Source: Dolomitihabitans soli
GTDB lineage: Bacteria; Actinomycetota; Actinomycetes; Streptosporangiales; Streptosporangiaceae
Assembly: GCF_022213955.1 (NCBI RefSeq)
Contig: NZ_JAKNTW010000021.1
Coordinates: 62,001 to 126,000, forward strand
Length of the DNA: 64,000 nucleotides
Direction of reading: 5' to 3'
The number at the start of each line of letters is the position of its first letter. Position 1 is the stretch's first letter. The notes below the pieces were generated by a model. It had not been told where the DNA came from. It saw only the letters and a list, made by a program, of their open reading frames with translations, and ran no database searches. Shown one piece after another: positions 2,915-42,535 of the stretch. Made by a program: the position numbers and the translations under genes.

Positions 2915-3190
2915 TCACATGCGATCAGGCGATCCTGCCGCGCGGGCGACGCAATGCCACACCGGCTCGGCATACCCCTGGTCGCCGAGCGCGGCCACCG
3001 GCTGCTTCAGCAACCCGTTCAACCGCCGGAAATCACGGGTGCCATCCGGCCGCAGGTCCGGCTCCAGCTCGGCCGGATGCCGCCATCCGGCCACCAGATG
3101 CGGATCCACATGCTCATTCGCCCGCCCCGGCCCATACAGGTAATAGATCAACCCCTCCACCCGGGACCCACGCACCACCTTCCCGATCAC
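2915..3190 (-). pseudogene. MOB relaxase remnant (N-terminal 90 codons only)
   Basis: This is a truncated copy of the relaxase at 39829-41586. It starts at the GTG overlapping the mobC stop (GTGA), as in the complete copy, and keeps the Tyr-containing N-terminus (GLIYYLYGPGRANEH). Similarity to the intact copy ends near 2935, before the HIH metal site, and the frame then stops. The catalytic domain is incomplete, so it cannot act as a relaxase. It marks an older, deleted element related to the one ending at 42.5 kb. Confidence 0.88.
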
Positions 3191-3603
3191 CGCAACTGCT
3201 TCCGCACCGCTTCCGCGATTCCGTCCAGCCTCCGCACCGTCCGCACACACGCCGCAGCGTACGGAACCAGATCCCCCGCCACCTCACCCGTCGCGTTCAA
3301 CGCCGCAACCGCCTGATTCAGATTGACCCCGATCCGCCGCACCTGATTACCGGCCCGCATCAACACGATCAACGCCTCCCGCAACGGATCCGGCATCGGC
3401 GGATCCACCTCCCGCGCCGCCGCCAACACCGCCAGCGCCGCGTACGCCCCGCGCGCCAACCCGAGCCGCTGCGCCGCGGCCTGCACATCAGCGTGCTCAT
3501 CCTCGGTCAACACGAACTTCACCACCCGCGACCGAGCCACCCCCTGCCGTTCCCGACGCCGCCGCACCGGCCCGACCACCGGCCCCTGGCCTTCATCAGG
3601 CAT
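3187..3603 (-). CDS. mobC: MobC-like mobilization accessory protein, copy 1
   Basis: This 138-residue protein is nearly identical to the second copy at 41583-41999. Differences are in about ten residues after MPDEG plus Arg for His and Val for Glu further on. It has a basic N-terminus (RRRRERQGVARSRVVKF), a likely ribbon-helix-helix part, and the NQVRRIGVNLNQ motif of MobC-type relaxosome proteins, which bind near oriT and help the relaxase. Here it is intact although its relaxase is truncated. The ATG is supported by the other copy, where in-frame upstream sequence differs. Confidence 0.85.
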   Translation of the reverse strand: MPDEGQGPVVGPVRRRRERQGVARSRVVKFVLTEDEHADVQAAAQRLGLARGAYAALAVLAAAREVDPPMPDPLREALIVLMRAGNQVRRIGVNLNQAVAALNATGEVAGDLVPYAAACVRTVRRLDGIAEAVRKQLR

Positions 3604-4534: not shown

Positions 4535-4756
4535 GCACGAGAGGCGTTTGCCACCAGCCCAACGCCTTTACATTGTAGATCGCGGCCGTAGTCTTCTCCC
4601 GACGGGAGCCAGCCTCACAGCGTCAAGACCACTTATGGCGGTTCAACTCCACGACCACGCCGATGCCGGAACAACCCGATCCAGCGGCCCCGCTGACGGC
4701 CCGGGATGGCGAGTGACGTCTGGTCCCGGGGGCAAATGGGGGTCAGATAATCAAGA

Positions 4757-4786
4757 AGGCCGGACCCGCGACACGCGGTCCGGCCT
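4757..4786 (-). terminator. hairpin downstream of the tRNA-Val fragment
   Basis: A near-perfect inverted repeat (AGGCCGGACC, then GGTCCGGCCT) lies just beyond the tRNA-Val 3' fragment. It corresponds to the hairpin at 42414-42445 next to the intact tRNA-Val, so the tRNA terminator was duplicated with the attachment site. Confidence 0.6.
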
Positions 4787-4805
4787 GTGACCTGGAGATA
4801 TATGG

Positions 4806-4848
4806 TGGGCGATACTGGGGATCAAACCAGTGACCTCTTCGGTGTGAA
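4806..4848 (-). other. tRNA-Val 3'-half fragment, left attachment site
   Basis: These 43 bases match the 3' half of the intact tRNA-Val(CAC) at 42464-42535, from the 3' end to the anticodon loop, with one inserted G and one G-to-A change in the T loop. Identity stops right after the anticodon loop (GTGTGAA), a usual crossover point for tyrosine integrases. The 5' half is missing, so this is not a functional tRNA. It is best read as the displaced attachment site left when the 37.6-kb segment inserted. Confidence 0.85.
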
Positions 4849-5085
4849 GCAATCACGGCATCGACTCGACATCGTCGCCACCCCCACCCCTTCCACAGCA
4901 ACTGTCCACCGTTGTTTGCCAACGGCCGCGAGCATCCATGGCGGTTGTCACTCGGTTGGTCACTCGGTAGCCGCACACCGTAACGGCATCCGTCGTAGCG
5001 GCCTTCGGTTGGTACGACGGATGCCGCATCAGCACGTTACTGAGATACGCGCAACGCGTCTCTGTTATGCATGTGGACCGGGTGG

Positions 5086-5220
5086 CTACTTGATCACGTA
5101 CATCGCAACCAGAGCTGAGACCTGGCTCATGACCTGCTTGATATCGGTTCCGGTGAAGCCGATCCATGCGAGAGCCAGTGAGGTGATCTCAGCGAATAGC
5201 CGGAAGATGGCTGTGCTCAA
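5086..5220 (-). CDS. possible 44-residue hydrophobic peptide, or gene remnant
   Basis: A TTG-started frame of 44 residues reads like a small membrane peptide, with a hydrophobic core around LALAWIGF and a C-terminal VSALVAMYVIK. There is no clear ribosome site and a stop lies directly upstream. It could be the end of a longer gene that was cut at the left end of the island. Function unknown. Confidence 0.25.
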   Translation of the reverse strand: MSTAIFRLFAEITSLALAWIGFTGTDIKQVMSQVSALVAMYVIK

Positions 5221-5486
5221 AGTGAGTTAGAACAAGCGCCGCGCGGGAGATATCGCCGATTCCGCTTTCCAAATATAGCGGGATTTGATTATCAAAAGCC
5301 ACCAACGCTGACGACTGACCGATTGAAGTTCCTGACCATTGTGAGCTCCAGGAGGTCCATCGTCCGGGGGCAGGATCGCGCGATATACCGAAGACATACC
5401 GGCGGTCTCTAGCCTGGCTGGAGCTGTCACCGACCTGGTCGGCCGCCGGCGGCAGTCCAGAGCCGATCACATGGAGGATCCATCTC

Positions 5487-5945
5487 GTGAAGTTCAAGAG
5501 CCTGCCTAAGGCATTCGGCACGGCCGCGGTCGGCGCGCTCATCGCGGCCACCTTCGTCGTCGCCAACCCCAGCGCGGCGGCGGCGGCGAGCTTTAACTAC
5601 GACGCGCCCACCAAGGCCACCGACGTGCGCACATTCAAGGAGTACGTGGCACCCAGCGGCGCGCGGCTCCAGCTCCGCATGGGCAAGTACAAGGGATCGT
5701 GGTACCGGTGGGGCCGCACGTCTAACCCGAGCAGCAACCTCAACAAGACCTACACCCTGTCATTCGGGCGGGTCGGCAACCCTTCTGCCTGCCCGAACGG
5801 CCACTCTGATGTGGACATCGACGGTACCTCGTACACGGGCGCGCTGAAGGTCACGAGCGCCCCCTCCCCCTACTGCACCTACAAGGTCGCCTGGATGAAC
5901 AGGGAGGGGTCCCATCAAAAGTGGCTCGAATGGAACGGGAAATGA
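5487..5945 (+). CDS. small secreted protein, unknown function
   Basis: This 152-residue protein has a clear Sec signal: a basic MKFKSLPKAF start, a hydrophobic segment and an AAAAA region with likely cleavage near residue 34. The mature part is about 118 residues, basic and aromatic, with two cysteines (SACPNG and SPYCTY) that could form one disulfide. The GTG start is supported by GGAGG 9 bases upstream. I do not recognise the family. It is the first convincing gene inside the island and has no partner gene beside it. Confidence 0.7.
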   Translation: MKFKSLPKAFGTAAVGALIAATFVVANPSAAAAASFNYDAPTKATDVRTFKEYVAPSGARLQLRMGKYKGSWYRWGRTSNPSSNLNKTYTLSFGRVGNPSACPNGHSDVDIDGTSYTGALKVTSAPSPYCTYKVAWMNREGSHQKWLEWNGK

Positions 5946-6476
5946 CCGGTTGTAGCTGAGCGCCATCTCATGATCAGTGGTGGCCGCCTCCTGCACGGGC
6001 GCGAATCGACGTCCACGCACCGATCAAACAACCCTCAGACAACCAGATCCTCAGCCCGGACAACCGCACCTACAACCGGCTCCTACGAGCGGTATTAGAT
6101 CGACTATAACGGGAGTACGACGCCTCCACGGCAGATCAATCTGTCGAAAAGGGTCGTTTATTGTACAGGCATTTAGCGTTTGGGTGTACGTACACCTTCT
6201 GCCCAAACTTGCAGGTCAAAAGCATGACGCCCCATATAAGTGTGCTGCTCAGACCCATTGATAATCCCGATTATCAATGGGTGATAGCGATCAGTTTCAT
6301 TTTGGACACACTTGCAATGGATGCGACTTTATGGGGGGTTTTGAGACTTGTGTCTGATTGTTAGACCCGTTCTCCCCAGCTACTAGCCACCTGCATCCGG
6401 CGAGGCGAGACGGCCCGGGACGCTCTTCAAGGCGACTCGCGCATAGCCGCCGTGTCGCATGGAAACTTAGGATTCA
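5946..6476. other. AT-richer non-coding segment with two perfect palindromes
   Basis: No convincing gene is seen here. Base composition is clearly lower in GC than the surroundings between about 6090 and 6360. It holds a 14-bp perfect palindrome GGTGTACGTACACC (6183-6196) and a 12-bp perfect inverted repeat with a 4-base loop (CCCATTGATAAT, 6254-6281). With the iterons just to the right, this layout resembles a plasmid-type replication origin. That is inference; no initiator gene adjoins it. Confidence 0.45.
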
Positions 6477-6544
6477 TGGCACCTCTCGCGGGTGCCAGAG
6501 ACGGGGGGTGGGGGAGTTACAGGTCAATGGAGTGCCCGCACTTC

Positions 6545-6631
6545 TGGCACCCGCCCTGGCACCCCTCGTGGCACCCCCGCTGGCACCCCCCTGAATTCGA
6601 CCTGGCATCCCGCCTGGCACCCCTGGCAGCA
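6545..6631. repeat. 12-bp iterons, TGGCACCC(C)
   Basis: TGGCACCC begins at 6545, 6557, 6569 and 6581, exactly 12 bases apart, then recurs slightly degenerate at 6603, 6615 and 6624. An inverted copy (GGGTGCCA) lies near 6490. Exact 12-bp phasing and mixed orientation resemble initiator or regulator binding iterons. Translating it gives only a WHP repeat, so coding is unlikely. Confidence 0.7.
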
Positions 6632-6777
6632 AGATCAAATGCTTGGGGGATGCATCCCACGCGCAGCCGTGCGCGCCATCCAGACCAACCCGCCGGCTAC
6701 TCCCCCAGAGGCGTTCAGGGGCCGTTCTGCGTGAGTCACGCGGGGAAGGCGTCGGCCCCGAGCACCACGTCGGCCAA

Positions 6778-6865
6778 GTTAGGCCGCCAGAGGGGAGTTA
6801 GATCGCTAACCCCAGTCCCAATGGCTCCGTAACCCATGCCGACCTCGGGGAAGTTAGCGAGTTAG
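6778..6865. repeat. GTTAG/CTAAC repeat cluster
   Basis: GTTAG occurs at 6778, 6797, 6853 and 6861, and CTAAC at 6806. The pair at 6797-6810 is an inverted repeat around ATCG. This is the second of four distinct short-repeat families that follow each other through this non-coding stretch. Confidence 0.5.
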
Positions 6866-6943
6866 CTGAGTTGAGTCGGAGTCTCTCGCCCAGCTGCGGA
6901 CCCCTGAGAGCGCTGATATCGGCGGGCTGGGGAGGTAACTCAG

Positions 6944-7092
6944 CCGCTACCAGGTAGCGGCATCGCTACCGCAGCCGCTACCGGAGCGACGTGCGGAAAC
7001 GACCGAAGGTAGCGGGTAGCGGCACACGCCGTAGACGACACAGAACCATCCCCTGGCCCTCCTTCGAGGGATGGCGCTCCGCTACCGCTACC
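6944..7092. repeat. GGTAGCG/CGCTACC repeat cluster
   Basis: Eight copies of GGTAGCG or its complement lie here (starts 6945, 6953, 6964, 6976, 7008, 7015, 7080, 7086). The first pair makes a palindrome CCGCTACC-a-GGTAGCGG at 6944-6960. Two more copies sit at 7829 and 7904, around the GntR gene promoter, so this family may be the operator of that regulator. The link to GntR is inference. Confidence 0.6.
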
Positions 7093-7210
7093 CCTGCACG
7101 GCGGTGGTGAAGCCCGACGCACATGGCCAGATGGCGCGCGGGAGGTTGCCCATCGCGCGGAACGCGTAGAGAGCGCGCGAAGCGACCCTTCTGGATTGGT
7201 CTTCACGTCT

Positions 7211-7495
7211 CTAGGTCTAGACCCTGACGCCTCTAGACCTAGAGGCTCCTCTAGAGGCTGATTCCGTGATCCACCTGCGGTCTAGGGCCTAGAGGCCCGT
7301 AGGCGACAACCGCCGTGAACGCCCCCGTGGCGCTCTCGTGAGAGCTGGGGTGCCACGTGGGAGAGTTACAGGGAGACCTCCGTGACACCCAAATGTGGCG
7401 TCTCAAGGTGCCGCTAGACCTAGCACCCTGAACCGCTAGGTCTAGCACCCCCGCTAGCGTCGAAACCGACCGTTGACCTGGCATCTAGCACCTAG
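7211..7495. repeat. CTAG-rich palindrome array
   Basis: Fourteen CTAG tetramers lie within 285 bases. Twelve form six pairs as CTAG-N2/3-CTAG (starts 7211/7217, 7233/7239, 7282/7289, 7414/7420, 7436/7442, 7485/7492), with single copies at 7251 and 7454. Several are embedded in longer palindromes, such as GCCTCTAG-ac-CTAGAGGC at 7229-7246. CTAG is rare in most GC-rich genomes, so this density is not chance. It adjoins the GntR gene. Its role is unknown. Confidence 0.75.
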
Positions 7496-7505
7496 CAGTC
7501 CCCCG

Positions 7506-7796
7506 TCAGGATGGCCCCATAGGGGACTTTCCGCCGCGCTCGCCGATGAAGGTTCCTTTGGCGGGCAGCGTCACGATCAGACCGCGCTCGCGGAGTTCCA
7601 CCATCGCGCGTCGTACGGTGCCGAGCGCTACGCCGTACTCCTCAGCCAGAGCACGCTCACCCGGTAGACGCGAGGCTGGGCGGAGTTCGCCGGCGTCGAT
7701 GCGTGCGGCGATATGGTCGGCCATCGCCGCGTAGACGTACACCGCGCCCTCAGGGTCGAACGGTGGAACGCCCTGGTCATCTCCCATAGAGATCAC
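7506..7796 (-). CDS. short GntR-type winged-helix regulator
   Basis: The protein has 96 residues from GTG 7796, or 93 from ATG 7787; neither start has a strong ribosome site. It consists almost only of a GntR winged helix: YVYAAMADHIAARI, LPGERALAEEYGVALGTVRRAM and a wing LIVTLPAKGTFI. No effector domain follows, so it is probably a ligand-free repressor or has lost its C-terminus. GntR repressors of the KorSA type control transfer and copy number in actinomycete integrative elements. The repeat arrays on both sides (GGTAGCG, CTAG pairs) are candidate binding sites. Confidence 0.8.
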   Translation of the reverse strand: MISMGDDQGVPPFDPEGAVYVYAAMADHIAARIDAGELRPASRLPGERALAEEYGVALGTVRRAMVELRERGLIVTLPAKGTFIGERGGKSPMGPS

Positions 7797-8280
7797 GTTA
7801 GAGCGGCCTTGAGCTGCACAAACAGGCAGGTAGCGGCATGCCGCTGTACACCGCTCTATACCGCGTCATACGATCGATGGATGAGCGGGCACCCCCTGAA
7901 CGAGGTAGCGGGCACAGACAGCGTCTGCATCGCCTGTGAGACTCCGGTCATCAGGGCGTACAGCGTGTACATCGGCCTGCTCTGGGTGAGCATCGCTCCC
8001 CAAGGTGCCAAGATTCCGCCGACCCAGTGCCCTAAAGCTGAGTACAGGTTCGGCGTGTACGGCCCGCATAGGGCAACACCCCCCGATTGTCCTGCTCAGG
8101 GAGCGTCACCTCCCAGGTAGGAAAGGTCCCGCCGTCTGCTTGCCCGACATGGAGTGGCCGGCAGATGGCGGGGCCGCACCTTCCCCCGCGGGGGGGTTAT
8201 CCGGGGGTGCTCCGTGGGGCATCCATTGCTGGTCAGCGGCCAAGCGAGCGTCACCAACGCGCCAGCTGGATGGGCCAGTC
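7797..8280. promoter_or_regulatory. intergenic region upstream of the GntR gene
   Basis: No gene is supported in these 484 bases. Two GGTAGCG motifs (7829-7835 and 7904-7910) match the cluster at 6944-7092 and flank the region where the GntR promoter should lie. The remainder up to the convergent end of the gene at 8281 shows nothing I recognise. Confidence 0.4.
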
Positions 8281-8868
8281 TTAGTGATTCCGCCTTAGAG
8301 CCAGTAGCTCAGGCTGCGTCCTTACCCAATCTTCTTCACGAAAGACCTGATAAGCGGACTCTCGAATTACAGGATCTACGACCAATGACACAAAATCCTC
8401 GGGAGTTGTTCCACAGAGATTCCGCAGCACTGCCGAAGAGTCGAGTAATCCCTTGATGAGCGCGCGCTGGTTGATCAGACGTCGAGGCGATCCGGCCTCT
8501 GCCATACAGCCATGCCTGCCGACGTAGGCGTAGCATGATGAAAGGCGTTGACCCGGAGGAAGCTGCACGTAGAAGGAATCAGGCAATGAGTGGCGATAGT
8601 AGTTAGGCTCAGTCGCGTCTAATGCCTGCAATTGCTCATCGTCGAGCCATAGTACAAATAGCTTGGATACCTCGCCTGGGGATACCACAGGCGTCGCTGG
8701 TATGTAACCAGCCTTATTGATGTGCGCAGACACCCCGGGGAAGATCCCATGGACGTCGGCGATAGTCATAGGGACTACCGCCCGAACTGAATGATTGATG
8801 AACTTACGTCTCAGCTGACTAGGCGAGGCATTGGACCCTACAGCCACCACACGGTGACGGTCGCCCAT
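8281..8868 (-). CDS. gamma-glutamylcyclotransferase-like protein
   Basis: This 195-residue protein begins with VVAVGSNASPSQLRRKF, which resembles the GSN motif near the N-terminus of gamma-glutamylcyclotransferase-like folds. Conserved-looking blocks follow (PATPVVSPGEVSKLFVLWLDDEQLQALDATEPNYYR, given here as positions about 58-93), in line with an enzyme that acts on gamma-glutamyl or similar amide groups. Family assignment is moderate and the substrate unknown. Base composition and codon use are less GC-rich than in the neighbours, which suggests separate acquisition. Its start abuts the cut-off small gene before the DUF2637 gene, so it was probably inserted there. Confidence 0.5.
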   Translation of the reverse strand: MGDRHRVVAVGSNASPSQLRRKFINHSVRAVVPMTIADVHGIFPGVSAHINKAGYIPATPVVSPGEVSKLFVLWLDDEQLQALDATEPNYYRHSLPDSFYVQLPPGQRLSSCYAYVGRHGCMAEAGSPRRLINQRALIKGLLDSSAVLRNLCGTTPEDFVSLVVDPVIRESAYQVFREEDWVRTQPELLALRRNH

Positions 8869-8884
8869 GAGACTGAGGTGAAGA

Positions 8885-9052
8885 CTGCGTCACGACCGCT
8901 GGCTACTCAAGCTGACCACCACCTCCGTACTGTGCGCGGGAGCCGAAGGCGTGTACGCCTTCGTCACCCCCAGCGGCCGGATCCTCTCCTCAGCCGGCGA
9001 CGACGAGATCGCCATTACGGCCCGCTGTCTGGCGGGAGCCCGACGGCCATGA
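8885..9052 (+). CDS. small ORF or 5'-truncated gene ahead of the DUF2637 gene
   Basis: A 55-codon frame ends with TGA overlapping the ATG of the next gene (ATGA), a sign of translational coupling. Its translation (TSVLCAGAEGVYAFVTPSG, then ILSSAGDDEIAITARCLAGA) looks protein-like. No good start codon exists: a stop lies just upstream at 8879-8881 and only CTG or a late GTG is available. It may be the remaining C-terminus of a gene whose start was replaced by the insertion at 8281-8868. Confidence 0.4.
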   Translation: MRHDRWLLKLTTTSVLCAGAEGVYAFVTPSGRILSSAGDDEIAITARCLAGARRP

Positions 9053-9912
9053 CCGGTCACCTCGGCCGCGCCATAACCATCGCCACGTGCCTGGTCGCCC
9101 CGCTGTTGCTGGCCTTGGCCGTCCTCGGCGGCATCGGCTCCTTCGGCACCATCAGCAAGCTCGCGCAGCCCTGGTTCGGCGCCTGGTCGTGGATCGTCCC
9201 GGTCGGAATCGACGTGGGCATCATCGCGCTGCTGGCCTGGGACCTGCTGATGGAGTTCGCCGGCCTGGCCTGGCCGGTACTGCGCTGGGTCGCCTGGAGC
9301 TTCATCGCCGCCACCGTCGTGCTCAACATCTCCGCCGCGCACGGCGACCCGGCCGCCGCCGTCATGCACGCGGCGATGCCCCTCCTGTTCGTCACGGTGG
9401 TCGAAGGGATCCGGCACCTCATCCGCCGCTGGGTCGGCCTGACCACCAACACCCGCCGCGAACGCGTCCCGCTCTCCCGATGGGCGCTGGCACCACTGTC
9501 GAGCTGGATGCTCTGGCGGCGCATGGTGCTGTGGAACATCACCAAATACCCCAACGGCCTCGAACTCGAATACGTCCACCTGCTCGCCGTGTCCCGGCTC
9601 AAGGAAGAGCACGGCCGGTGGCTATGGCGCTGGAAGGCGCCGCTCTCCGATCGGGTAGCCCTGCAGTTGCACCCAGCTCGGACCGCGTTCCCCGAGGACC
9701 TCCCTGAACCACAGTTGCCGATCGCCGAACGGGACGACGCGCTGATCGAGGCCGCCCAGAAGATCCTCGCCGAAGCCGAGCACGACGGAGTACGGCTCAG
9801 CCAGATGGACCTCGCGGCCCGACTTCGCGCCCAGGGTCACCGCATCGCCAACGAACGTCTGCGCTGGCTCGCCACCGCCGTCGGGCTCCGGCCAACCCGG
9901 GAATCGGTGTAG
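9049..9912 (+). CDS. DUF2637 membrane protein of actinomycete mobile elements
   Basis: The protein has 287 residues. The first 130 hold about four membrane segments (near 8-28, 40-65, 70-92 and 98-118), followed by a soluble, mostly helical C-terminal half. This matches the DUF2637 (Spd-like) proteins common in integrative and conjugative elements of actinomycetes, often beside replication or transfer genes. The ATG overlaps the preceding small ORF by four bases. The primase gene begins four bases after its stop, so the genes form one operon. A role in element spreading or partition is inference from context. Confidence 0.75.
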   Translation: MTGHLGRAITIATCLVAPLLLALAVLGGIGSFGTISKLAQPWFGAWSWIVPVGIDVGIIALLAWDLLMEFAGLAWPVLRWVAWSFIAATVVLNISAAHGDPAAAVMHAAMPLLFVTVVEGIRHLIRRWVGLTTNTRRERVPLSRWALAPLSSWMLWRRMVLWNITKYPNGLELEYVHLLAVSRLKEEHGRWLWRWKAPLSDRVALQLHPARTAFPEDLPEPQLPIAERDDALIEAAQKILAEAEHDGVRLSQMDLAARLRAQGHRIANERLRWLATAVGLRPTRESV

Positions 9913-9916
9913 GCGA

Positions 9917-10954
9917 ATGCTCTACACGATTCACCAGGAGGCTGAGCGGTTCTACCTCTCACGCCGCCCCGGCAGCTGGGTCCCCGATTACCTGACCGCG
10001 CGAGGCTTCGACGAGGCCGTCCAGCACGACTGGCGAATCGGGTACGCCCCCAACCGGTGGACCGACCTCACCGATCACCTACGCGGTCTCGGATTCCCAG
10101 ACAGCGCGATCAAGAGCTCAGGACTGGCCTACGAGCCCAAACGCGGCGGGCTCATCGACACCTTCCGCGACCGCGCCATGCTGCCGATCACACGGCCCGA
10201 CGCAACCACCATCGCCTTCATCGGCAGATCCGCAAGCGGCGAGCCGAAGTATCTCAACAGCCCCGAAACGCCGATCTACCACAAAGGCAGCACCCTGTTC
10301 GGGCTCGATCGGGTACGGCACGGCGTCCGTCCCGTTCTCGTCGAAGGACCGCTGGACGCCATCGCGATCACCATCACGGCACCCACAGAATTCGCAGGTA
10401 CAGCCCTGTGCGGCACAGCACTCACCCCACACCAGGTGGACGCGCTCGCGCAGGTCTCCGATCAGAAGGTCGTCATCGCGCTCGACGGTGATCCCGCGGG
10501 GCTCGCAGCGGCGATCAGGGCCTACAAGGTGCTCGACGCCGACGCCGTACGCTTCCCCGACGGCCGCGATCCGGCCGACCTGCTGCGCCGCGGCGAGCTG
10601 GGTACGGCTCTGCGTCACCGAACCCAGCCGCTGGCCGACCTGGTCATCGATGCCACGATCGACCGCTGGAGCGGTTCCCTGCACTTCGCGGAGGGAACAA
10701 TCGGGGCGATGCGAGAGGCCGCCACGGTCATCGTCCGCCTGCGTCCTGACGACGTCGCCCGGCAAGTCGATCGAGTGGCCACGCGCCTCGGCCTGGGCTG
10801 CGACGCGGTGACCGAAGCCGTCACCGATCTCGTCGCCCCACCGCTGGCCAAGGTCGACTTTCCCAACGTCCCGACGCCCGGCGGCACATCCGTACCCACC
10901 AAGGGGAGAAGACACGATGAACGCATTCGAGCACCACGCCGACCCACTCGGTGA
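9917..10954 (+). CDS. DnaG-type primase with Toprim domain, without zinc finger
   Basis: In this 345-residue protein, residues about 1-85 resemble the DnaG catalytic N-part (YLTARGFDEAVQHDWRIGYAP) and 95-230 form a Toprim domain, with the acidic EGPLDAIAI motif near 147 and ALDGDPAG near 190. The CHC2 zinc-binding domain of chromosomal DnaG is absent. Similar truncated primases occur in plasmids and integrative elements, where they prime element replication. The gene overlaps the next start by 38 bases. Its presence agrees with the origin-like repeats at 6.2-6.6 kb. Confidence 0.8.
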   Translation: MLYTIHQEAERFYLSRRPGSWVPDYLTARGFDEAVQHDWRIGYAPNRWTDLTDHLRGLGFPDSAIKSSGLAYEPKRGGLIDTFRDRAMLPITRPDATTIAFIGRSASGEPKYLNSPETPIYHKGSTLFGLDRVRHGVRPVLVEGPLDAIAITITAPTEFAGTALCGTALTPHQVDALAQVSDQKVVIALDGDPAGLAAAIRAYKVLDADAVRFPDGRDPADLLRRGELGTALRHRTQPLADLVIDATIDRWSGSLHFAEGTIGAMREAATVIVRLRPDDVARQVDRVATRLGLGCDAVTEAVTDLVAPPLAKVDFPNVPTPGGTSVPTKGRRHDERIRAPRRPTR

Positions 10955-39828: not shown

Positions 39829-41586
39829 CTACCGCCCGGGGCCCCGCCGAGCGCTGGGCGGCTCAGGACCACGCCGGGAACGCCCTTCGCCCTGCCGCGT
39901 GCCCGCCTGCCGAGCAGCCGGTCGGCCCGGGAAATCCAGCCCCGCCAACCGCGCCTGAACAGACGCACCTCGCCCGGTTCCGACCCCCGCCGTACGAAGA
40001 TGTCGGGCAGCAGCCCGAGCGCCGGCCGCGTGTGCCATACGCCGCTGAAACTCCCGCAGCTCCGCCACCGCAACCACGACCAGACCCAAATTCCGCACCA
40101 ACGCGGCCACCGTGTCGTTGCCCGGCATCGCTCCAGCCGCCGCCATCAACCGCGCCACCACCCGCAGGCTGTTCCCCGCCGCGCCGGGATCGGGGATGCG
40201 GGCGTACGGCTCGCGCGCGGCACGGTCGAACGCATCCGCAGCCCGGCGCAGCGCCGGGTCATCCAGCATGCTCGCCGCGACATGCAACACATCCGACGCC
40301 GCCCACGCCGCATCCCCCGCCGCCGGATCACCCACCGCGCACTGGCGGATCTGCTCGGCCGCCCGTCCAGCAATCGCCACCGCATCTTCAAAGATCGCCT
40401 GCCGCTCGGCCGCAGTGATCTCCTCCACCCGTGGCGAAGTCCCCGCCCACCGGAGGCGCAGCTTGGGAAGCGTCAGATCATCCGCGAGTCGTCCACCGGC
40501 GAACCAGCGCAATCCACCGCTCCGGTCCCGGAATCCGGACAACGCCACCGCATACCCCGTGACCTCACCCGGATCACGCTCACTCACTCGCCAGCGAACC
40601 AGCAGCCCCGCATCCTTCAGCCGGGCGAAGAACTCCTCCTCCGAACCGACGTCCTTGGCGGCCTGCCGTACTGCCGTACGCGCCAGCAGCTTGGCACTGA
40701 CCTCCGAGACACCCGTCCCGGAATCTCTTCCGACCGCATTCCGGGGATTCCACCGGGCCCGCAGCTTCGGAAGTGTCAGATCGGCCGCCAGCTTCCCGCC
40801 GCCGTACCAGACCGGCTCGCCAGCACGTGTGACGTGTACGGGCAGCGCGACCGCGTAGCCGGTGACCTCACCCGGGTCGCGCTCGCTGAACCGCTTGCGG
40901 ACCAGCACCCCCGCCGCCTCCAGACGGCCGAAGAACTCCCCTTCCGACGCGGCGCCACCGGCCGCGGTGATCACGTGGCGGCGCAACACGATCCGGGGCG
41001 CCTCCACCCAGCGGCGTCGCCGCGCCTGCTCGGTCTCCGCCCGCGTCGGCCTGCGCGCCGCCGTACGATCCCCCGGCGCGGTCACACGCAACCCGAACCG
41101 ACGCTCCACCGCCTGGCACGCCTCCCGCACCCGGTAGAAGTCGTTCCACGTCTTCGGCTTGACCCCGTCCTGACGGGCCAGCGTGGCCACGATGTGGATG
41201 TGATCAGGGGCGTGCCGGACCGCCACCCACCGCACCGCCTCATCATCATCGGCGGCGGCCAGGCCAGTGTGGTGCATGATCTCGTGCGCCACCATCGCCC
41301 ACTCATCATCATCCAGGAACCGGTCCTCACCTGCCGCGCGGGCGACACAGTGCCACACCGGCTCGTCATACCCCCGCTCGCCGAGCGCGGCCACCGGCTG
41401 CTTCAGCAACCCGTTCAACCGCCGGAAATCACGGGTGCCATCCGGCCGCAGGTCCGGTTCCAGTTCGGCCGGATGCCGCCATCCGGCCACCAGATGCGGC
41501 TCGACATGCTCATTCGCCCGCCCCGGCCCATACAGGTAGTAGATCAATCCCTCCACCCGGGAACCGCGCATCACCTTGCCGATCAC
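39829..41586 (-). CDS. mobA: MOB-type relaxase
   Basis: The protein has 585 residues. The start is the GTG overlapping the mobC stop (GTGA). The N-terminal relaxase domain has Tyr16, Tyr17 and Tyr19 (EGLIYYLYGPGRANEH), a His region, and the metal motif HIH at 129-131 (HIHIVATLAR), as in the relaxase/mobilization nuclease family (MOBP-like). Later parts show two similar blocks (DPGEVTGYAVAL occurs twice, near 270 and 350) that may bind DNA. It nicks oriT and leads the strand into a recipient. No FtsK/TraB or type IV secretion gene is present, so transfer needs a helper. Confidence 0.93.
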   Translation of the reverse strand: MIGKVMRGSRVEGLIYYLYGPGRANEHVEPHLVAGWRHPAELEPDLRPDGTRDFRRLNGLLKQPVAALGERGYDEPVWHCVARAAGEDRFLDDDEWAMVAHEIMHHTGLAAADDDEAVRWVAVRHAPDHIHIVATLARQDGVKPKTWNDFYRVREACQAVERRFGLRVTAPGDRTAARRPTRAETEQARRRRWVEAPRIVLRRHVITAAGGAASEGEFFGRLEAAGVLVRKRFSERDPGEVTGYAVALPVHVTRAGEPVWYGGGKLAADLTLPKLRARWNPRNAVGRDSGTGVSEVSAKLLARTAVRQAAKDVGSEEEFFARLKDAGLLVRWRVSERDPGEVTGYAVALSGFRDRSGGLRWFAGGRLADDLTLPKLRLRWAGTSPRVEEITAAERQAIFEDAVAIAGRAAEQIRQCAVGDPAAGDAAWAASDVLHVAASMLDDPALRRAADAFDRAAREPYARIPDPGAAGNSLRVVARLMAAAGAMPGNDTVAALVRNLGLVVVAVAELREFQRRMAHAAGARAAARHLRTAGVGTGRGASVQARLAGLDFPGRPAARQAGTRQGEGRSRRGPEPPSARRGPGR

Positions 41587-41999
41587 CGCAACTGCTTCCG
41601 CACCGCTTCCGCGATTCCGTCCAGCCTCCGCACCGTCCGCACACACGCCGCGGCGTACGGAACCAGATCCCCCGCCACCTCACCCGTCGCGTTCAACGCC
41701 GCCACCGCCTGATTGAGGTTGACCCCGATCCGCCGCACCTGATTACCGGCCCGCATCAACTCGATCAGCGCCTCCCGCAACGGGTCCGGCATCGGCGGAT
41801 CCACCTCCCGCGCCGCCGCCAGCACCGCCAGCGCCGCGTACGCCCCGTGCGCCAACCCGAGCCGTTGCGCGGCGGCCTGCACATCGGCGTGCTCGTCCTC
41901 GGTCAACACGAACTTCACCACCCGCGACCGAGCCACCCCCTGCCGTTCCCGACGCCGCCGCACCTGCCTAGCCCCCTGCTCCCTGCCTTCATCAGGCAT
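41583..41999 (-). CDS. mobC: MobC-like mobilization accessory protein, copy 2
   Basis: The protein has 138 residues. The start at MPDEG (ATG 41999) is chosen because GGGGAGGTGA lies just upstream and because copy 1 at 3187-3603 shares that start; the longer frame to 42008 begins within the ribosome site. A basic N-terminus and the NQVRRIGVNLNQ motif match MobC. Its stop overlaps the relaxase start, so the two are translated together. It should bind near oriT and help open the DNA. Confidence 0.9.
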   Translation of the reverse strand: MPDEGREQGARQVRRRRERQGVARSRVVKFVLTEDEHADVQAAAQRLGLAHGAYAALAVLAAAREVDPPMPDPLREALIELMRAGNQVRRIGVNLNQAVAALNATGEVAGDLVPYAAACVRTVRRLDGIAEAVRKQLR

Positions 42000-42175
42000 C
42001 CCGATCACCTCCCCCGAACGGACCGCGCCCGGTCCCTGCTGATCAGCACCACCCGCACCCAGCTGCGGAAACGTGGTGCGCCCTGATCAGCAGCGTGCAT
42101 CGCCGGACCCCGCCGGGTCCAGAGATAAAGGGACGTTAGACATATCTTGCTTCGCTTCGGCACAGCCCGGCACGG
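42000..42175. other. conserved region upstream of mobC, candidate oriT copy 2
   Basis: It is nearly identical to 3604-3775 although non-coding. It includes CTGCTGATCAGCA (a palindrome), a repeated CTGATCAGCAG, GGACCC-cgcc-GGGTCC, and the shared AGACATATCTTGCTTCGC block. Conservation breaks just after 42175. Location before mobC and relaxase suggests oriT and their promoter. Confidence 0.45.
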
Positions 42176-42445: not shown

Positions 42446-42463
42446 TGACCTGGTGATTTTCGG

Positions 42464-42535
42464 TGGGCGATACTGGGATCGAACCAGTGACCTCTTCGGT
42501 GTGAACGAAGCGCTCTCCCGCTGAGCTAATCGCCC
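42464..42535 (-). tRNA. tRNA-Val (anticodon CAC), attachment site of the island
   Basis: This is a 72-nt cloverleaf: acceptor GGGCGAT/ATCGCCC, D arm GCTC/GAGC, anticodon stem CTTCG/CGAAG with loop TTCACAC (anticodon CAC), T arm ACTGG/CCAGT. CCA is not encoded. Its 3' half is duplicated at 4806-4848, so it is the integration target. The copy here is complete, which shows that the inserted element restored the 3' end. Confidence 0.95.

Follow-up and report, generated by a model that had tools for sequence, protein, structure and literature searches.

The window (the whole stretch of 64,000 nucleotides analysed here) carries an element of 37.6 kb whose ends are a tRNA-Val fragment (about 4.8 kb) and tRNA-Val (42.5 kb). 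The right boundary is the tRNA-Val(cac) gene (42462..42535, minus strand), and at the left one the tRNA-Val end and its flank recur as an att-like copy (4722..4848, no strand assigned), in which 24 bases are exact at 4825 and the longer match is imperfect. The left part of the element encodes a GntR-type regulator of 96 aa (7506..7796, minus strand, PF00392), a DUF2637 protein (8791..9912, plus strand, PF10935), which we take to be SpdB-like, using SpdB as a name for DUF2637 proteins, and a DnaG-like primase (9917..10954, plus strand, PF08275 and Toprim). A probable relaxase of 605 aa (39829..41646, minus strand; a weak match to NF041325 MobB, far below the cut-off) and a probable MobC/NikA-like protein (41583..42008, minus strand) are encoded next to the right boundary. 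The latter was assigned because it resembles the ORF at 3187-3603, itself a match to PF21983 at the cut-off.

The relaxase and MobC-like ORFs at 39829-42008 have truncated counterparts at 2915-3603, on the left side of the att fragment. The region 13591-34245 contains stress cargo, comprising NAD(P)-disulphide reductases, FUSC, LysR, PsiE, an AAA/LuxR regulator, DnaK-GrpE-DnaJ, ClpB and a cNMP-binding reductase, and resembles a mobile chaperone island. Defence genes were considered and rejected, as PADLOC gave weak matches only on the seven window proteins submitted.

The attachment-type repeat at tRNA-Val was accompanied by no match in the window to the tyrosine-type integrase profile PF00589. 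Profiles of the two translocase families described below found no FtsK/TraB-type translocase gene of the kind that defines an AICE, either in the window or in the 56.9 kb of contig C11 to its left (L005, L483 and L484). The window genome encodes one TraB only, which is distant (26% identity) and has a flank word unlike CTAG, and a search for the second translocase family, run without a positive control, gave no match in this genome.

Two copies of a seven-site CTAG module

The sequence-only reading had counted 14 CTAG sites within 7211-7495, twelve of them in CTAG-N2/3-CTAG pairs. All 14 are present, as six pairs plus two single sites. The tetranucleotide had been called normally rare, and the counts agree: 24 sites were found in the remaining 63.7 kb, and the window total of 38 compares with 84.0 (sd 7.9) in dinucleotide shuffles, therefore CTAG is scarce outside this stretch. 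Two features were absent from that account, namely the arrays of other words described in the next section and the common register of the sites. The 14 sites fall into a 7-site module (site offsets 0, 6, 22, 28, 40, 71 and 78) that is present twice in direct orientation, at a distance of 203 bp. Module M1 (7211..7292) and module M2 (7414..7495), neither assigned to a strand, agree in 52 of 95 bases in the shared register, in comparison to 17-25 at the eight neighbouring registers tested. M2, which contains a TGACCTG-type motif at 7474, lies 11 bases from the end of gntR.

The 10.8 Mb assembly contains four occurrences of the 4-site core of the module, CTAG-N2-CTAG-N12-CTAG-N2-CTAG: two are in the window, and the others are at C11:18120 and C11:19967. 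The modules of the C11 pair are 1.8 kb apart and are also followed by a gntR gene. Each module pair of the assembly has a tRNA-Val end fragment a few kb or less to its left; elements, the window and C11 copies, are thus stacked at one tRNA, tRNA-Val. Between M1, the candidate clt of the CTAG class, and its copy at C11:18120 the word bases are identical (28/28), and 85 of 97 other bases are kept. Transposon ends were considered from the spacing of the C11 modules and dropped once the link to traB emerged. The core has dyad symmetry, each arm being 11 bases long. Among 108 distinct cores, every one of positions 1-11 is paired in 103-108, and positions 5 and 6 have changed on both sides.

Arrays of other words upstream of the modules

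Just upstream of the CTAG modules, at 6477-7092, lie arrays of three other words, none assigned to a strand. A TGGCAC(C)/GGTGCCA array of 7 words (6477..6620) and a GTTAG/CTAAC array of 5 words (6778..6865) came from the clustered-word scan and resemble arrays found elsewhere. A GCTACC/GGTAGC array of 8 words (6946..7092) has its last four core sites spaced 12, 31 and 7, a spacing common to the CTAG module and GCTACC arrays. In the scan of the 64 kb the 24 best-scoring 150-base scanning windows all started at 6426-7426, and their words were CGCTACC, GGTGCCA, CTAGA, CTAGC, CTAAC and variants. A stretch of 25-26 bases at 6750-6775, perhaps a gene or att fragment, matches several genomes of the family at 96-100%.

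In the family search the GCTACC array matched six places, four of them directly behind TraB genes (G233, G007, G013, G265); of the other two, G253:C15 is near a CTAG core, with TraB not seen there, and G012:C41 lies elsewhere. GTTAG arrays adjoined TraB matches in L413, L432, L447 and L460, i.e. in 4 of 12 candidates among the matches listed, the remaining 8 listed having no adjoining TraB match. GGTGCCA arrays were read in 17 loci, and in 16 a second translocase family, matching NF041214 (plasmid TraB) below the cut-off, was encoded beside them, with the array on its 3' side and up to about 0.8 kb away.

The window and C11 copies of the GTTAG array share 23 of 25 word bases and 72 of 96 others. 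In the second C11 copy a central stretch is missing from the GCTACC array, which keeps 36 of 48 word bases, and the clustered-word scan gave no GGTGCCA score at that copy. Some words of the window arrays are degenerate, and a TGACCWG-type motif is absent from the GTTAG, GCTACC and M1 arrays of the window.

Association of the CTAG module with translocase genes

The sequence-only reading had proposed a structured DNA site bound by protein and had pointed to related elements as the place to look for the pair motif. Conservation of the pairs supports that proposal: 69 of the 341 family genomes, that of the window included, contain the 4-site core, and 5 a reversed control pattern. The module geometry recurs across Actinomycetota. 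Core scans gave at least 119 stretches in genome contigs and 24 in a viral collection, some of them chance occurrences or tandem repeats, and a module was kept if two or more of its three further sites were in register, giving a set of 156 oriented modules. The viral contigs L162 (13113) and L165 (8355) carry CTAGTACTAGG tandem repeats unrelated to the CTAG module.

When ORFs neighbouring the listed modules were clustered, the dominant upstream partner was an FtsK/TraB-type translocase of about 700 aa. Its gene lay upstream of 124 of the 151 listed modules having at least 250 bp of upstream sequence, and 114 of 128 such ORFs ended 12-19 bases before the first CTAG. The Pfam match to FtsK_SpoIIIE is sub-threshold (19.9 bits against a cut-off of 24), and database records label the protein cell division protein FtsK. 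Repeats directly beside a TraB gene are thus found in the relatives and not at the window, which has no traB. Downstream, at about +127 to +380 of the array, a gene for a small cysteine-rich protein was observed in 118 of 152 listed modules. Farther downstream come Prim-Pol, helicase-like or SSB genes in varying combination, Prim-Pol being seen in 54 listed modules and different replication families in further ones. A circular record of 18.4 kb with a CTATCGATAG array has GntR, DUF2637, FtsK, the array, Prim-Pol, HTH and integrase in this order. Related loci with the GntR-DUF2637-FtsK-array-Prim-Pol-integrase layout are AICEs.

Word classes behind the translocases

A total of 211 translocase genes with their 3' flanks were collected, many by protein search. 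An exact CTAG core was present in 122 of the 211 flanks, which is no natural frequency because many of the genes had entered through the CTAG pattern. Many other flanks contained the same type of array built from a different word, among them CTATCGATAG, CTACCGGTAG, CTTCCGGAAG, CGAAACC, CGCGACC, CGCTACC, CGTTACC and CGCAACA; the flanks of L076 and L214 had no clear word. The pSVH1 flank carries the same architecture with GACCCGGA, which we take to be the pSVH1 TraB word. The TGACCWG-type motif was found in 102 of 210 flanks, in 22 of 34 arrays of the batteries described below and in 520 of 3769 control segments. The SpdA palindrome sps, CGTCACGTGACG in the available part of PMC4170104, was considered as the module and rejected.

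A winged helix is predicted for the translocase C-terminus (115 residues; mean pLDDT 80.5). Matches of this domain to PDB folds were weak, with a best E of 0.021 (none reached 0.001), and a PDB sequence search with the C-terminal profile gave one match with E 0.15. At equal ATPase identity in the 25-55% range, the C-termini of same-word pairs were more alike (38-42%) than those of different-word pairs (27-31%); these pairs are not independent and come from 169 genes with short-list words, 40 of the CTAG ones having been drawn and rarer words left unlabelled. Above 55% ATPase identity no consistent C-terminal difference between same-word and different-word pairs was seen.

As far as the available part of PMC3583192 describes them, the clt of pWTY27 comprises 16 bp within traA plus 159 bp on its 3' side and is bound by TraA, and TraB of pSVH1 recognises repeated 8-bp motifs through its C-terminal winged helix. 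Since the module sits behind a translocase gene and the same architecture occurs there with other words, it is best read, from its sequence and position, as the clt (TraB loading locus) of one specificity class, the CTAG class. The class would be new, and the clt type of site was already known. A GntR operator or an RNA structure is scarcely credible for the array: gntR ends beside M2 and the core has dyad symmetry, but GntR, which the sequence-only reading had linked to the sites, is a common neighbour and no constant partner, the array lies 3' of gntR and the upstream side of this gene has no CTAG at 7797-8100, AC[TC]T[AG]TT[GC][TG][GT]ACG is the sequence bound by the AICE regulator SCO3932 (available text of PMC8584621), an Rfam search of 5000-10000 at E up to 5 gave four matches, all far below gathering scores, and position 12/21 of the 108 cores is A-C in 17, G-T in 23 and T-G in none, so a double-stranded site fits better than an RNA stem.

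CTAG modules on elements without traB

Twenty-seven modules were without TraB, and after four of the window genome and one tandem repeat (L165) had been dropped, 22 orphan modules were left. One counted among them, L030, has the usual downstream genes and may correspond to an AICE with a broken traB. Another word array lay within 1.5 kb of 17 of the 22 orphans and of none of the 129 other modules, i.e. 124 with TraB seen and 5 cut off upstream (Fisher p 2e-18). In about three of the 17 the further array was again of the CTAG type, and five orphans had no further array. With CTAG words left out, a further array was kept in 15 of 19 longer regions. Across twenty longer regions, non-CTAG clusters with inverted copies numbered 34 in 69.4 kb near CTAG arrays, in comparison to 13 in 236.7 kb farther off.

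Ten orphan regions were tested, along with the window, for boundaries. Seven (L463-L467, L471, L475) are bounded by tRNA-end repeats of 42-56 bases, which delimit elements of 8.1-12.7 kb; such repeats were not found in L476, L477 and L478. Inside the seven elements (70.1 kb) 32 word clusters were present, some of which are one word twice (AAGTTCG/ACGAACT in L466) or may lie in genes (GGTTCA, CTGAAC), and in 69.2 kb of their flanks there were none. No TraB match lies inside the bounds of the seven, that of L471 being outside. The proteins read in the bounded elements include Prim-Pol, DUF3631, DUF3987, AAA_25 and HTH_17 proteins, the last presumably excisionases. L464 has intact integrase and excisionase-like genes and the integrase frame of L463 looks split; the arrays of both lie near rep and xis genes. 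An integrase within the bounds was unconfirmed for L465 and L466.

Of 16 genomes with orphans, 8 also hold a CTAG core beside a TraB match, a co-occurrence no more than suggestive of help from another element. Words of the resident TraB flank recur beside the orphan array in G343 (CGTTACC), G352 (CTAGCGA) and G354 (CAGGGAG, in the same 20-kb region), and G351 comes close; the other 11 of 15 genomes gave no clear match beyond the CTAG core. A 7.7 kb Nonomuraea plasmid (L179) was rejected as a tra-less carrier, since a long ORF on it has an FtsK-like match with E 8.8e-8.

Elements of two Streptomyces (L468 and L470) share the words AGCGTCC, TGACGCA and CTAG and their order; about 6 kb away, additional arrays lie close to an integrase gene. 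In L010 regular GCGGGGA repeats at about 51-1150, left of the CTAG array, translate into repetitive ORFs as a CRISPR array would, and a GGTTCCA array is present on the other side.

Interpretation of the window arrays

TraB conjugation moves DNA between antibiotic-producing actinobacteria. To our knowledge, transfer origins have been described for few plasmids. According to the available part of a 2022 paper, none has been described for pSAM2.

The observations comprise the geometry of the modules, their conservation, their position behind traB in relatives, the change of word among relatives of the translocase and the clustering of arrays on traB-less elements. On their strength we propose, with a probability of about 0.7 for the joint reading, that one large TraB class recognises the word CTAG and other classes different words, that the CTAG modules are clts and that the window stack is moved in trans by a co-resident AICE or plasmid bearing TraB. 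A clt would be a cis-acting double-stranded DNA locus at which the FtsK-like TraB assembles via its C-terminal winged helix, starting conjugation. The window element has a stack of four words (GGTGCCA, GTTAG, GCTACC and CTAG, the last twice) and no traB; a matching TraB of an AICE or plasmid sharing the cell would load on the array and pump the hitch-hiker, as a circle, into the mating partner. That several differently coded pads are stacked on a pump-less element suggests travel on pumps borrowed from several other mobile elements. The probable relaxase and MobC would give the window element a second route for hitch-hiking. TraB binding, transfer and continued function of the window copy are what we infer; this copy may also be a decaying relic, there being no integrase match, no matching TraB in the genome and three arrays without the TGACCWG-type motif.

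The window stack could instead be a remnant of successive AICE integrations at tRNA-Val whose arrays no longer serve as clts, and the same gaps, together with the degenerate words and the tandem elements at one tRNA, would fit such a history. This explanation is nevertheless unlikely: for M1 and GTTAG the two copies differ less in the words than at other bases, no translocase HMM match lies between the arrays, and seven bounded elements elsewhere, one of them (L464) with its intact integrase, have the same type of stack. Replication origins (iterons) bound by the Rep of the element itself are improbable. Prim-Pol and helicase-like genes often follow the arrays, which in L463 and L464 are near rep and xis, but three to seven different words are found on a single element that has a single rep system. 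The replication or partition centre suggested by the sequence-only reading is likewise less likely than a locus for conjugation, as it is the translocase that accompanies the module constantly, whereas the replication genes vary. Decoys that titrate or bind a rival TraB and stop rival transfer are quite improbable as well; multi-class stacks on traB-less elements are equally compatible with decoys and with origins, but the full architecture, spacing and motif of true flanks, unneeded for a decoy, are kept.

It is rather probable that actinobacteria harbour a class of small tRNA-integrated elements, traB-less and living as satellites of double-stranded DNA conjugation, whose transfer origins come in batteries and address a different TraB pump each. 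Such hitch-hiking batteries on traB-less elements are the novel part; the open PMC papers searched contained no description of them, that is of traB-less elements with several clts, or of a CTAG clt. If the reading is true, one element could be moved by many unrelated AICEs and plasmids, and helper and hitch-hiker could be paired from sequence alone. Batteries could also explain the spread of traB-less islands with cargo, e.g. the chaperone island of the window. With the word array behind traB, the origin of many AICEs would become readable from sequence, the origin word would be tied to the translocase, and a TraB recognition code would become testable.

Comparison with known systems

The clts of Streptomyces plasmids (pSVH1 TraB, pWTY27 TraA, pJV1, pIJ101) are, like the arrays described here, arrays of short repeats beside a gene that encodes an FtsK-like translocase. 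According to the available parts of PMC3583192 and PMC4170104, the array of pWTY27 and of pSVH1 is directly 3' of the translocase gene, as for the relatives of the module, and the repeats are bound by the translocase. Unlike those clts, the CTAG word and its rigid 7-site geometry are common to many genera, and the window arrays are orphan and stacked with other words. With AICEs of the pSAM2 and SLP1 type the relatives share the layout of GntR, DUF2637, FtsK, Prim-Pol, excisionase and integrase as well as tRNA attachment, whereas the window element and the bounded orphan elements have no traB.

Integrative mobilizable elements and other hitch-hikers with oriT only also carry transfer origins and borrow a transfer machine, and mobilizable plasmids with several oriTs are known (available part of PMC11389934). 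The window element itself gave weak matches to a relaxase and MobC and carries clt-like arrays. The oriT hitch-hikers use a relaxase and send single-stranded DNA through a T4SS, whereas the arrays described here would be candidate origins for a pump of double-stranded DNA and are present as three to seven word clusters per bounded element.
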